From positions 248,001 through 312,000 of the forward strand of contig NC_015557.1 of assembly GCF_000213785.1 (NCBI RefSeq): DNA of 64,000 bases, given 5' to 3'. The notes below the pieces were generated by a model. The model saw only the letters and a list, made by a program, of their open reading frames with translations, was not told where the DNA came from and did no database searches. This DNA comes from Hydrogenobaculum sp. 3684 (GTDB lineage Bacteria; Aquificota; Aquificia; Aquificales; Aquificaceae). Positions 36,286 through 41,280 of the stretch are shown piece after piece (within the stretch, counting starts at the first letter, position 1; each line of letters starts with the position of its first letter). Position numbers and translations under genes: made by a program.

Positions 36286-37647
36286 TCATAAAAGTTTTTT
36301 CTGAGAAGACATAACAACAGTTTCAGATAAAGAAGGATGAGTGTACATGCATCTTGATAAAAACTCTAAATCTTTTCCAGCTTTTACTATGTGTACCAAT
36401 TGATGAATTAGCTCTCCAGCTTGAGGTCCCAGTATTTCTGCTCCTAAAATCTCTTTTGTGTTGGCATCGTATATTACCTTTGCGTATCCTTCAGCTTCAT
36501 CGTCTATAATAGCTTTTGGATTTTTAGCAAAGGTGGCAGTACCTACTTCATAGTCTAATTCCATATCTTCCGCTTGATCTATATTTATACCAAAAGATGC
36601 AATTTCATAAGCTGAGTATATAATCTTTGGCACAAGCTTATAATCTAATTTTTCTGCATCGTTGTTTATATGGGCTACAGCGGTTCTTCCTTCGTACATA
36701 GATTTATGGGCAAGCATCAAAGGCGATGTCACATCACCACAGGCGTATATATGATTTACAGATGTTTTGGCGTATTCATCTATTTTTACATATCCTTTTT
36801 CTGTAAGAGCTATATCTGTATTTTCTATACCTATGTCTTTTGTGTTTGGAGCTCTTCCAACAGCTTCCAATATAATATCGTATTCTATAATAGTGCCGTC
36901 TTTTAAAATAGCTTTTCTTTTACCATCTTCTTCTATAAGATTTTCTATAGTGTTTGAAGTAAATATCTTTACACCTAAGCTTTTAAGCTTTTTACTAAGA
37001 TAAGAAGCGCTATCTTCTGATTCTGAAGGTATTATCCTTTTTGAAATATCTACTAAATATACATCTATATCATACATTCTAAATATATACGCAAACTCTA
37101 CACCCACTACGCCTGCCCCTACTATGAGAACTGATTTCGGTTTTTCTGTGATACCCCAGATGGTATCCGTGTTGTATATTTTAAACTTTGTTTTGTCGTA
37201 ATGAAGTATGCTAACCACAGAAGAACCAGTAGAAAGAAGTATATATTTGCCTTTTATTACATCCCCTCTTGTGGTTTCTATGGTGTTGTTGTCTTTAAAT
37301 CTACCTTTTCCATAATATATATCTATTTTTAAGCTTTTAGCATAAGCTTTGAAACTTTCCCTTATATCGCTGACGGCGTTGTCCCTATGCTCTTTAAAAG
37401 CAAGCCAGTCTATATCTTGGCTGTCTATCTTGATACCGTATTTTATACCTCTTGAAAGATGCTCTCTTAGTTTAGCACCAAATCTCATATATTTTGATGG
37501 TATACAGCCTCTATTTAGACAATTGCCACCTATGGTTTTTTCGGATATATCTATCATTGCAACGTGCATTCCGTATCTTTTAGCATGGAGTATAGCCTCA
37601 TAACCACCAGACCCGGCTCCAAATATAACTATGTCATATTCTTTCAT
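36286..37647 (-). CDS. lpd: Dihydrolipoamide dehydrogenase-type flavoprotein
   Basis: The 453-residue disulfide oxidoreductase has an FAD motif (FGAGSGGYEA) and the redox disulfide C43-x4-C48 (GGNCLNRGCIPSK). An NAD motif follows (VGAGVVGVEFAYIF), then YACGDVTSPLMLAH and the C-terminal catalytic motif HPSLSE. This is the Lpd layout, oxidising dihydrolipoyl groups. No 2-oxoacid dehydrogenase genes are adjacent, so the partner complex is unknown. Its start overlaps the small gene upstream by 14 bases. Confidence 0.85.
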   Translation of the reverse strand: MKEYDIVIFGAGSGGYEAILHAKRYGMHVAMIDISEKTIGGNCLNRGCIPSKYMRFGAKLREHLSRGIKYGIKIDSQDIDWLAFKEHRDNAVSDIRESFKAYAKSLKIDIYYGKGRFKDNNTIETTRGDVIKGKYILLSTGSSVVSILHYDKTKFKIYNTDTIWGITEKPKSVLIVGAGVVGVEFAYIFRMYDIDVYLVDISKRIIPSESEDSASYLSKKLKSLGVKIFTSNTIENLIEEDGKRKAILKDGTIIEYDIILEAVGRAPNTKDIGIENTDIALTEKGYVKIDEYAKTSVNHIYACGDVTSPLMLAHKSMYEGRTAVAHINNDAEKLDYKLVPKIIYSAYEIASFGINIDQAEDMELDYEVGTATFAKNPKAIIDDEAEGYAKVIYDANTKEILGAEILGPQAGELIHQLVHIVKAGKDLEFLSRCMYTHPSLSETVVMSSQKKLL

Positions 37648-37879
37648 CTTCCTTACTCCTATCCTTTTTGCTATTTTTAATTTTATTCTTTCTTCGTTCT
37701 TTGTAAACCTCTTGTCTTATGTCTTTTATCAATTTTTTGTATTTATAGAATACACTAGGTACTTTTATTGGTAAATGGTAATATTTTTCAAGCATAAGCA
37801 TAATATCTTCTGTGGTAAGATATTTTTTGTTGGTAATAAGGGTTTTTATATATTTGTATATCCTTGAATCTTTTTTCAC
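37634..37879 (-). CDS. Small basic protein, unknown
   Basis: This lysine/arginine-rich product has 81 residues if started at GTG 37879, which overlaps the preceding stop (TAGTG), or 87 from GTG 37897. The N-terminal part (RIYKYIKTLITNKKYL) looks helical. The tail is highly charged (KERRKNKIKNSKKDRSKEDERI). No family recognised; a nucleic-acid-binding role is only a guess. It lies between the M16 protein and lpd with overlaps on both sides, so it is probably real. Confidence 0.5.
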   Translation of the reverse strand: MKKDSRIYKYIKTLITNKKYLTTEDIMLMLEKYYHLPIKVPSVFYKYKKLIKDIRQEVYKERRKNKIKNSKKDRSKEDERI

Positions 37880-39054
37880 TATGTTACCACTACGCACTTG
37901 TGATGATTTATGTATGTTTTATAAACATGCTCTATGTCTTCTTTGGAGACTTTGTTTACAAGATTTTCGTAATCAAAAACTGTGTCTTTACCAAGTCCTA
38001 TAAGCTCATAATATCCCATGGTGTAAGATTTGCTAAACCTCGTTTGATGCTCCAAAGAAAAGTTTCCTATTAGCTTTTGTTTGGCAAGCGTTATATCCTC
38101 TTCATCTATTTCAAGGTTTTTGATGATGTCGTTAAGGTCTTCCAAAGCGCTTTGAGATTTTTCTACAGATGTTCCTATGTAAGCTATCATCTTAGAGCAG
38201 TAAATATTTGTAGAAATAGAGCTATTTACCGCATATGCATAACCTTTTTCTTCTCTTAAAATCTTAAAAAGTATAGAGCTCATACCGTTTCCAAGGATTG
38301 CATTTAACACTTTAAAAGCAAAATACTCATTTTTATCTATTGGCAAAGGAGCATCGTATCCACACATAATACTAGCCTGAGCCCCGCCCCTTTTTATATT
38401 TATAACTTCATCTTTGTCTACTTTAGGACAGATGTTTGCTGGTGGTGTTCCTTGGCTTTTAGAAAAAATATCCAATACGCTTTTTATTGTTTCAAGATCT
38501 TCATCTTCTAAATTGTCTGCTACTACGCTTATGATAGGTTCTTGGTTTAATATATCGGCGTATCTTTTTTTAACATCTTCAAGGGATATACTTTTAACAC
38601 TATCTTCAGTGCCTAAACTTGATATCTCATAGGGAGTATTTTTATACAATATTTTTCTTAAATTGTCAAAAGCAAAATCAAAAGGCCTTTCTTTTCTTGA
38701 TTTTAAAGTAGATAATACGTTTTGTTTTTCTATCTCTAAAGTTTCTTCTTCAAATACGCTATTTGTAAGTATATCTTTTAAAGTATCTATAGATTCTTTT
38801 ATATTGGCTTTTTTTGTAGCTATTGATATTGTTATAAAATCTCCGTAGGTTTTAAATCTTAGAAATCCCCCAACATTTTCAAATACTTCGTTTATTTCCT
38901 GGGAAGTTTTTGAAGTGGTTTTTTTACCCATTAGTGATGTGGTGATGTTTGTAAGGCCCTTTATAGGCTCATACATAGCCCCGCCTTTTAAAAAAATGTT
39001 TATAGCCACTATATCAAAATCAGAGTTTGTGTTATGGTATATAAATTTCTCCAT
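37879..39054 (-). CDS. M16-family peptidase-like protein lacking the zinc motif
   Basis: From ATG 39054 the product is 391 residues with the two-domain M16 fold. It includes GGAMYEPIKGLTNITTSLM, where active enzymes have HxxEH, and later VLNAILGNGMSSILFKILREEKGYAYAV, the conserved C-domain segment. The inverzincin motif is replaced by NITTS. This is therefore a non-catalytic subunit or pseudoprotease, usually paired with an active partner that is not seen here. TTGGAG precedes the start. It belongs to the pspA unit. Confidence 0.8.
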   Translation of the reverse strand: MEKFIYHNTNSDFDIVAINIFLKGGAMYEPIKGLTNITTSLMGKKTTSKTSQEINEVFENVGGFLRFKTYGDFITISIATKKANIKESIDTLKDILTNSVFEEETLEIEKQNVLSTLKSRKERPFDFAFDNLRKILYKNTPYEISSLGTEDSVKSISLEDVKKRYADILNQEPIISVVADNLEDEDLETIKSVLDIFSKSQGTPPANICPKVDKDEVINIKRGGAQASIMCGYDAPLPIDKNEYFAFKVLNAILGNGMSSILFKILREEKGYAYAVNSSISTNIYCSKMIAYIGTSVEKSQSALEDLNDIIKNLEIDEEDITLAKQKLIGNFSLEHQTRFSKSYTMGYYELIGLGKDTVFDYENLVNKVSKEDIEHVYKTYINHHKCVVVT

Positions 39055-39056
39055 AT

Positions 39057-40097
39057 TTAACTCCAAGAATCATCTTGATTTGTATCTATATCGTTGCCCC
39101 AATCATCTCCACCTGCAAAATCTATGTTGTTGTCTGTATCTTGGTTTGTTATGTCTTGGGTGTTATCTATGGGCGGTTCGTTGTAATAGTTATTTTCTAC
39201 GATAGTAGGACCCATTCCAAAACCACCACTAAACACAGAACCCATCAAAGAGCCCATCGCCATCATGCCAAGCAGGTCCATAAAAGACATCCCACCGCCC
39301 ATCATGCCAGGTCCCATAGTTTGCTGGTTTTGATAGTTTTGCTGGGGATTTGTATTTTGAAGGTTTTTTAAATCATCGTGGGTTTCATAGGTGTTTTTGA
39401 CCCCTGTAGCCACTTCTTTTAGTTTGTCTTTGAGATTTTCAAAGTATATATAAGAGCCTTCTATATCTTGAATTTCGTTGTTTTTAAGCTTTTGAAGTAA
39501 ATCTATCATCTTTTGTTTTATTTCGCTTAGTTCGTTTAATCTGTCTGATAAATCTTTTTTGGCTGGATCATCGTCTTTTAAAGACACCAAATCTATAGAT
39601 AGTTTTGTTTTCACCTTTTCAATATTTTCAAGATACAACGTAAGTTCTTGCATAAGCTTTGTCTTTATATCTTCTTTGTTTTTGTTTGTAAGTTTGTTTG
39701 ATATGTATAAAAATACAGCCCCCGCTATCAGCAAACCACCTATTAAGAAAAATATCATAGCACCTCCAAAAGTACCCTTTTTGACTTTGACAGATTTTTC
39801 TAAATCCCTTTCGTAATTTTTTAAATAACCTTTATGGGCAAAGGACTCTGAAGGGTCAAGTTTTTTTGCTATGTTTAACTCGTTTAGAGCTTTGTTGTAT
39901 TTTCCTTCAATATAGTAAACTTGAGAAAGCATATAATGGGCTTTTGCGGAGTTTGGGTCTTTTTGCAACACTTCTTTTAAAAGCTCTTCTGCTTTATGAT
40001 AATGCCCAGCTTGAACTTCTTTAGCTATATCGGAAGGAGTTGGTAGTGCCAAAGCTAAGCTAAACCACATCAAAAAGAATATTATATATTTTTTCAT
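39057..40097 (-). CDS. Secreted/membrane TPR protein with coiled coil and Gly/Met-rich tail
   Basis: The 346-residue product has a signal peptide (ending about residue 18 in LALALPTPSD) and two TPR repeats (residues about 25-92). A transmembrane helix follows at about 112-130 (GAMIFFLIGGLLIAGAVFL). A coiled-coil segment then leads to a low-complexity tail rich in Gly, Met, Asn and Asp (GPGMMGGGMSF onward). The stretch MMAMGSLMGSVFSGGFGMG resembles tails of TPM/PspA-associated proteins. It overlaps the 47-residue membrane protein upstream by ATGA. Confidence 0.65.
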   Translation of the reverse strand: MKKYIIFFLMWFSLALALPTPSDIAKEVQAGHYHKAEELLKEVLQKDPNSAKAHYMLSQVYYIEGKYNKALNELNIAKKLDPSESFAHKGYLKNYERDLEKSVKVKKGTFGGAMIFFLIGGLLIAGAVFLYISNKLTNKNKEDIKTKLMQELTLYLENIEKVKTKLSIDLVSLKDDDPAKKDLSDRLNELSEIKQKMIDLLQKLKNNEIQDIEGSYIYFENLKDKLKEVATGVKNTYETHDDLKNLQNTNPQQNYQNQQTMGPGMMGGGMSFMDLLGMMAMGSLMGSVFSGGFGMGPTIVENNYYNEPPIDNTQDITNQDTDNNIDFAGGDDWGNDIDTNQDDSWS

Positions 40098-40237
40098 ATA
40101 TTAAACCTTTTTCTTCCTATGTTAAAAGCCAAAAACACCGCAAACAAAAACGCCCCAAGCATAAGAAATCCCATAATCTTCCATACTATTATACCTATTA
40201 CAAGCACAATGGCTAGCAAAATAACTTGTTCTATCAT
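40094..40237 (-). CDS. 47-residue membrane protein of the pspA operon
   Basis: This small frame starts MIEQVILLAIVLVIGI and ends FNIGRKRFNI. It is almost wholly hydrophobic, with two helices broken by WKIMG and a basic tail, so the C-terminus is probably cytoplasmic. Its ATG overlaps the pspA stop by ATGA and its stop overlaps the TPR gene start by ATGA, so it is tightly coupled on both sides. Position next to PspA recalls PspB/PspG-type membrane partners, though no sequence match is claimed. Confidence 0.7.
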   Translation of the reverse strand: MIEQVILLAIVLVIGIIVWKIMGFLMLGAFLFAVFLAFNIGRKRFNI

Positions 40238-40908
40238 TTTAATCCCATTTCTTTCTTTAGGGCTTCAAGTTTATCGTCTACGGTGCTTGTTTTTTCAAGG
40301 TTTTCAAATTCTTTTTCTATATCGGCACCGGTTTGCTCATCTTCTATATTTTTCATAGCTTTTGCTTTTGCCTCTTCTTTTAGGACTTTTTCTTCAACAG
40401 AGTCAAGCTTTTCCTTAGCATGAGAATCGCCTATACCTGTGGTGATTTCGGAAGCTTTTTCTTGGGCTTTTGCCACTTCGTACCTTGTGCTTAGGATATC
40501 TGCCTTTGATTCTAGTTCTTGTTTTTTATTTTTTAACTCTTGTATTTTGGCTTTTAACTCGTTTATAGATGGTTCTAAAGCTTCAATCTGTTTTTGATAG
40601 ATATCTGCTTGTTTTTTCGCTTGTTCTTCTTGCTCTAAGGCTTTTTTGGCCAAATCTTCCCTGTTTGCTTGTAAAGCCTTTTTAGCCCTTTCATGCCATT
40701 CGTTGGCTTCTTCCTCATATTGGGTTTTCTTTTGTTTTAAGAGCTCATACTCGGCCATTACGTTTACCATGCTGGCATTGGCTTTTTCTATCTGCTCTTC
40801 TAAATCCCTTATCACTTGTCTTGCGGTTCTTCCAGGCTCTGACGCTTTGTCTAAAGCATCGTTTAAAGCCCCTTTAATCTGGGTCATTAGATTTTCTAAA
40901 AAGCTCAT
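40234..40908 (-). CDS. pspA: PspA/IM30-family membrane-stress protein
   Basis: PspA/IM30 proteins are ESCRT-III-like coiled-coil proteins that bind and stabilise stressed membranes. The 224-residue product has the family N-terminus (NLMTQIKGALNDALDKASEPGRTARQVIRDLEE, residues 6-38) and long helices with heptads to about residue 150. A TATAAT -10 lies at 40926-40931 and AAGGAGGT precedes the ATG. No sigma-54 motif is seen, unlike the E. coli psp operon. It heads the chain pspA-47aa-TPR-M16-small-lpd-argB-mobB-scpA. Confidence 0.85.
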   Translation of the reverse strand: MSFLENLMTQIKGALNDALDKASEPGRTARQVIRDLEEQIEKANASMVNVMAEYELLKQKKTQYEEEANEWHERAKKALQANREDLAKKALEQEEQAKKQADIYQKQIEALEPSINELKAKIQELKNKKQELESKADILSTRYEVAKAQEKASEITTGIGDSHAKEKLDSVEEKVLKEEAKAKAMKNIEDEQTGADIEKEFENLEKTSTVDDKLEALKKEMGLK

Positions 40909-40962
40909 AAACTTACCTCCTTTTTATTATAATCTATATCCCCTAAATAAAATATTTGTGAG

Positions 40963-41280
40963 TTATAGAAAATTTTTTAGTTTTTCTTTTATAAACTCTT
41001 TTGGTATAACACCGCTTATATTACCATTTATGTTGAAAGTCCTACAAGAATATGATATCTGGTCTGGCTCCTTGTTCGTATATATATCTATACCGTTTAC
41101 ATATATAGACGGTGAGCCCATAAACTTAACTTTTTGAGCTGTTTCTAAATCTTTTACATCTATACTCTTTATTGGTATATTTATGTTTAGCTCTTTCAAA
41201 GCCTCCATTAGATTTTTATATGTGGGTTCAGAGTTTGGGCAACCTTGGAAAAATAAAAACTCTATTTTTTCTATACTCAT
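40963..41280 (-). CDS. Thioredoxin-fold protein (DUF2703-like)
   Basis: The 105-residue protein has a thioredoxin-like beginning, IEFLFFQGCPNSEPT, with C14 as the single active-site Cys (CPNS), and a cis-proline region MGSPSIYVNGID. It resembles DUF2703/glutaredoxin-like proteins that handle thiol-reactive metals. It follows the TetR gene by one base, suggesting regulation by that repressor. Confidence 0.65.
   Translation of the reverse strand: MSIEKIEFLFFQGCPNSEPTYKNLMEALKELNINIPIKSIDVKDLETAQKVKFMGSPSIYVNGIDIYTNKEPDQISYSCRTFNINGNISGVIPKEFIKEKLKNFL

Follow-up and report, generated by a model that had tools for sequence, protein, structure and literature searches.

Which proteins does PspA work with in Hydrogenobaculum sp. 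3684, where its gene stands at the head of a chain of small, largely overlapping genes? The locus lies in a 64,000-nucleotide stretch of contig NC_015557.1 (hereafter the window), within a complete genome of 1,552,775 bases. On the reverse strand pspA is followed by a 47-aa frame, a TPR protein gene, an M16 gene, a gene for a small basic protein, lpd (a dihydrolipoamide-dehydrogenase-like gene) and argB, most of them overlapping (Table 1). An earlier note, made from the sequence alone, had described the first five as a chain on that strand, which we could trace frame by frame, and had suggested that they form a distinct Psp-related envelope-stress module that includes a pseudoprotease. As set out below, a core of pspA, the 47-aa frame and the TPR gene stands up to comparison, but the M16 and basic proteins do not belong to it as Psp parts. 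The reading that we favour, and hold to be probable, is that PspA here has two membrane partners, a TPR protein facing the periplasm and a small co-anchor, and that passenger genes share their transcript; the functional steps of this reading are those that we infer.

Table 1. Features of the pspA operon, with positions in the window and the evidence for each
Feature	Coordinates	Strand	Evidence
Probable promoter region with TATAAT and GGAGG	40909..40962	-	just upstream of pspA; conserved among 5 genomes
pspA, PspA/IM30 (bacterial ESCRT-III-like), 224 aa	40234..40908	-	Pfam PF04012 9.6e-35
47-aa membrane protein	40094..40237	-	ATGA overlaps at both ends in 5/5; frame-controlled selection test
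TPR protein, proposed partner	39057..40097	-	TPR_2 2e-9; alignment of 5; hydropathy
M16 peptidase non-catalytic subunit (M16B)	37879..39054	-	PF05193 1e-22, PF00675 1.8e-17
81-aa basic protein, Aquificaceae-wide	37634..37879	-	present in 62/136 genomes

The gene order from pspA to argB is the same in all five Hydrogenobaculum genomes, so it is not a peculiarity of a single genome within the genus; it was not seen in other Aquificota genera, where the earlier note had proposed to look for it. That note had the genes coupled by overlaps almost throughout. The 4-bp ATGA overlaps at the pspA/47-aa and 47-aa/TPR junctions are indeed present in 5/5 genomes, but the 10-bp overlap at the M16 gene holds only with a TTG start; the ATG at 39054, separated by 2 nt from the TPR stop codon, is the more probable start. 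The genes upstream of pspA vary: a thioredoxin-like gene adjoins it in four of the five genomes and a TetR gene is present in three, while neither occurs in the stretch of UBA2488 that was examined. As TATAAT and GGAGG are kept even in UBA2488, where the upstream gene differs, the operon probably starts at pspA. The thioredoxin-like gene that precedes pspA in four of the genomes (window 40963-41280) encodes a DF-family (seleno)protein; pairs of pspA and thioredoxin genes are reported from other phyla.

The pspA product is a full-length member of its family. The PspA_IM30 domain of Pfam covers residues 6-221 (120.6 bits; cut-off 33.9), and solved PspA/Vipp1 structures are matched over the full length (best 4.5e-24). 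The N-terminus, Met-Ser-Phe-Leu, is amphipathic, with an amphipathic helix by calculation, and Pro25 is conserved. The gene occurs in 5/5 Hydrogenobaculum genomes with dN/dS of 0.02-0.08. These genomes lack PspB and PspC (0/5 for PF04024 and PF06667, with a positive E. coli control), and no pspF lies next to pspA, the upstream genes being those for the thioredoxin-like protein and TetR. The arrangement is non-standard, as had been claimed, and the absence of PspB and PspC from the genus leaves room for other membrane partners.

PspA exceeds the Pfam cut-off in only 11 of 136 Aquificota genomes and two of 30 genera, Hydrogenobaculum and Aquifex, and a scan of the genome collection with the PspA alignment matched only Hydrogenobaculum and UBA2488. 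Both genera are Aquificaceae, but the Aquifex PspA is distant (27-32% identical) and its partner genes differ. The Aquifex operon (L052:8038-12039), which differs from that of Hydrogenobaculum, appears from our reading of its sequence to resemble the CesT/Tir-PspA-DUF4178-lipoprotein-DUF350-spermidine synthase association, the second group of Ravi 2024. Inheritance of the psp operon from an Aquificaceae ancestor is not supported, given PspA in two of 30 genera and the differing operons, and the PspA tree is resolved too weakly to name a donor. The closest plasmid relative of the window PspA is encoded on Paraburkholderia pBIL (34%), and no match was found in annotated phage records. On conjugative plasmids of Citrobacter and Serratia (L142:5992-7154, L143:4995-6180) pspA overlaps the downstream gene, whose product on the Citrobacter plasmid has an N-terminal TM segment.

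The 47-residue frame proposed in the earlier note is a real gene, based on its conserved junctions, its conserved sequence and an excess of synonymous changes in the coding frame. The other copies are 94, 77, 70 and 43% identical to that of the window, with 17 invariant columns and a conserved C-terminal GRKR. In pairwise comparisons with enough divergence for the test, synonymous changes exceed expectation at p 7.5e-5 to 4.5e-4 in three cases and at about 0.01 in two more, while the other two same-strand frames over the gene are interrupted by stops and lack this excess. The ORF is under purifying selection. The window copy and that at L044:11700-11843 differ at a pS of 0.03, whereas the flanking genes differ at 0.45-0.49, which suggests from sequence divergence a local recombination tract spanning the 47-aa gene.

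The hydrophobic part of the 47-aa protein spans about 35 residues (about 5-39) and has a polar interruption at K20, where the UBA2488 copy reads LKVFHDT. AlphaFold2, which knows no membrane, models one helix over residues 2-45 (pLDDT 91); the hydrophobic stretch and its polar break would suit a short hairpin, and the protein is probably either a short helical hairpin or a single helix. No Pfam or NCBIfam model matches it above cut-off, and its gene is confined to Hydrogenobaculum among the 136 Aquificota genomes. No similar frame lies between pspA and the TPR gene in the plasmid and viral loci.

The TPR protein consists of a signal peptide, a TPR domain (about 20-90), a TM segment (about 110-134), a helical/coiled-coil region (141-247), a hydrophobic stretch rich in Gly and Met (262-300) and an acidic tail ending QDDSWS. 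The AF2 model places helices at 141-171, 178-205 and 212-239, at a mean pLDDT of only 61, and a fold search with this model returned generic TPR matches only. Based on the signal peptide and the single TM segment, the TPR domain would be periplasmic and the tail cytoplasmic.

The earlier note had cast this protein as a membrane anchor beside PspA. Outside the genus, homologues adjoin pspA on a Paraburkholderia plasmid and in viral contigs. Nine matches were found in plasmid records at 1e-3, all on Burkholderiaceae plasmids; on pBIL the homologue directly follows pspA and has the architecture of the Hydrogenobaculum protein. A comparable PspA is encoded on five distinct IMG/VR contigs, and in four of them a TPR protein of like layout adjoins pspA, its gene lying downstream in L151 and L152 and upstream in L160/L150 and L156. 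Proteins with the order of signal peptide, TPR, TM, helical region and acidic tail thus stand beside pspA in the window, L139, L151, L152, L160 and L156. Pfam TPR models match three of the four viral proteins; that of L156 has no match at 1e-3 and was assigned by layout and alignment. Two of the viral contigs with the pair, of 297 kb and 178 kb, carry a terminase and are therefore phages.

Compared as profiles, the Hydrogenobaculum and other TPR proteins match at an E value of 1.4e-30 over the signal peptide, TPR and TM, a similarity that is in part generic, as TPR domains are common, although no more than the nine plasmid records reach 1e-3. Beyond the TM segment no significant alignment was found between them, only a shared composition and a DSW- or DDW-like ending. 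Scans of viral sequences with the Paraburkholderia TPR protein and with the first TPR alignment gave no match; in annotated phage records the L152 TPR protein has no match and the L151 PspA has one weak match. The TPR homologues of Cupriavidus and B. contaminans have no adjoining pspA.

One alternative is that a small genome has simply packed unrelated genes into long overlapping operons, so that the TPR and 47-aa proteins have nothing to do with PspA. The downstream lpd and argB are clearly unrelated to it, and M16B, like the basic gene, occurs family-wide, as this explanation would have it; however, it does not account for a pspA-TPR adjacency that recurs in Paraburkholderia and four viral contigs, in both gene orders, and we consider it unlikely. 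Alternatively, the TPR and 47-aa proteins could be effectors of a separate periplasmic quality control system, with PspA incidentally recruited to protect the membrane from it. The combination of signal peptide and TPR and the Cupriavidus homologues without pspA are compatible with such a system, which becomes very improbable given that pspA directly adjoins the TPR gene in most sampled lineages. Because the pair is adjacent both on a Burkholderiaceae plasmid and in phage contigs, the TPR protein looks like an overlooked PspA partner. By gene neighbourhood, the pspA-TPR pair, which extends to another phylum as well as to phage contigs, is the apparent portable core of the system; the earlier note had missed this. 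The main texts of Ravi 2024 (PMC11237479) and Popp 2022 (PMC9239133) name no Aquificota, M16 or TPR partner of PspA, TPR appearing once in that of the former, beside a VPS4-like ATPase, and the pairing is provisionally new relative to those main texts.

The remaining genes of the chain have a different history. As the earlier note had observed, the M16 protein lacks the zinc-binding motif: NITTS stands in place of HXXEH and the distal Glu is lost, while the LREEKGYAY motif retains its R and Y. An active partner, which that note had proposed to look for, is encoded about 400 kb away (M16A, with HFLEH, at 687.3 kb). M16 heterodimers comprise one HXXEH subunit and one without it, the latter bearing an R/Y pair, and their genes are usually adjacent (PMC12731061). 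HXXEH and the distal Glu accordingly occur in one of the two Hydrogenobaculum subunits only, and the R/Y pair falls in the non-catalytic one (M16B ILREEKGYAYAV versus M16A EIKEKGIVYSF, as judged from a sequence alignment only). Ten sampled Aquificaceae have the two genes next to each other or almost so, and in a genus designated g10 active and inactive subunits are fused in a single 832-aa ORF (L090:6687-9185); on this genomic evidence M16B and M16A make up the predicted M16 heterodimer of Aquificota. TTHA1264/TTHA1265 and SPH2681/SPH2682 likewise pair one subunit with HXXEH and one without, but the Hydrogenobaculum genes are far apart and neither product has a signal peptide.

In sampled Aquificaceae relatives both subunits carry signal peptides; M16B of the window has none, and M16A has none in 5/5 Hydrogenobaculum genomes (L089:7330-8577). 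The shared loss argues well for their still acting as a pair, and suggests that the protease may have moved from the periplasm to the cytoplasm. This could be fitted to a module comprising the whole operon, in which M16B made under stress activates a cytoplasmic M16A/B that removes membrane-derived peptides or regulates PspA. PspA and both subunits would then share one side of the membrane, and in 5/5 genomes the psp operon has retained M16B. However, M16B-like genes occur in 130 of the 136 Aquificota genomes, most of them without PspA, the partner gene is distant, none of the plasmid or viral loci examined has an M16 gene beside pspA, and lpd and argB follow in the same operon. A whole-operon module is thus improbable, and M16B, being so much more widespread than PspA, is better seen as a relocated housekeeping subunit. 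The notion of a psp-specific pseudoprotease, for which we found an inactive partner of M16A instead, is rejected as a false lead; a heterodimer subunit that is found with or without PspA, and that adjoins or is fused to its active partner in relatives, is not supported as a functional Psp part.

The basic protein, which the earlier note had also placed in the module, fares no better. In all genomes the alignable product is 81 aa long rather than 87, with its start at 37879, and its gene directly precedes lpd in the window and in four genomes of another genus, designated g4 (L117, L118, L123, L126). A family-wide gene that is linked to lpd in g4 was rejected as a psp component.

On this view the locus would protect the envelope in the manner of Psp systems, PspA remodelling the membrane as a cytoplasmic polymer in concert with two membrane-bound products of its operon. 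One of these, the TPR protein, probably passes through the membrane once, with its TPR domain exposed to the periplasm and its helical region and acidic tail, which contains Trp, available to PspA in the cytoplasm. The other is the 47-aa protein, whose translation would be linked by stop-start coupling to that of pspA before it and the TPR gene after it, and which is most likely a membrane co-anchor or assembly regulator, by analogy with the role of LiaI for LiaH. Together, the two may recruit PspA to the inner membrane, or release it there, upon envelope damage or a periplasmic signal, as the LiaI-LiaH and YdjGHI systems suggest. M16B and the basic gene would be co-transcribed Aquificaceae genes, with M16B expected to supply what the active site of the distant M16A lacks.

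Several known systems offer parallels. In the Lia/Psp response of Bacillus subtilis a PspA-family gene likewise adjoins a small membrane protein gene, and LiaI is described as anchoring LiaH (PMC9239133, PMC8581546); the 47-aa gene differs in lying between pspA and a TPR gene, and its product is likened to LiaI by proposed role rather than by homology. The same papers hold YdjG/H to be needed for PspA placement at the Bacillus membrane. According to PMC8581546 and PMC11237479, B. subtilis PspA is placed at the membrane by integral membrane proteins encoded in its operon, one of which has a coiled coil or low-complexity tail, as the TPR protein does. The YdjGHI domains are TPM, zinc-ribbon and SPFH, whereas that of Hydrogenobaculum is TPR. 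In E. coli PspFABC, too, small membrane proteins accompany a member of the PspA/IM30 family; the Hydrogenobaculum set departs from this system by its lack of PspB, PspC and an adjoining pspF.

A broader proposal, which we advance tentatively and hold somewhat less probable than even, is that the TPR-TM proteins are an unrecognised, mobile family of PspA partners, acting as transmembrane receptors that inform PspA on the state of the periplasm. Bacterial chromosomes, plasmids and large phages would all carry such proteins, in the last case possibly to hold the host membrane intact during infection, and the 47-aa microprotein would be a third component added by Hydrogenobaculum. For the attachment and switching of PspA outside Proteobacteria and Firmicutes, the recurrent neighbour of pspA provides a concrete protein candidate. 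If the proposal is correct, large phages bring along two genes, for PspA and a TPR protein, as a kit for membrane protection. Phage-borne PspA-type membrane-remodelling proteins deserve a study of their own.
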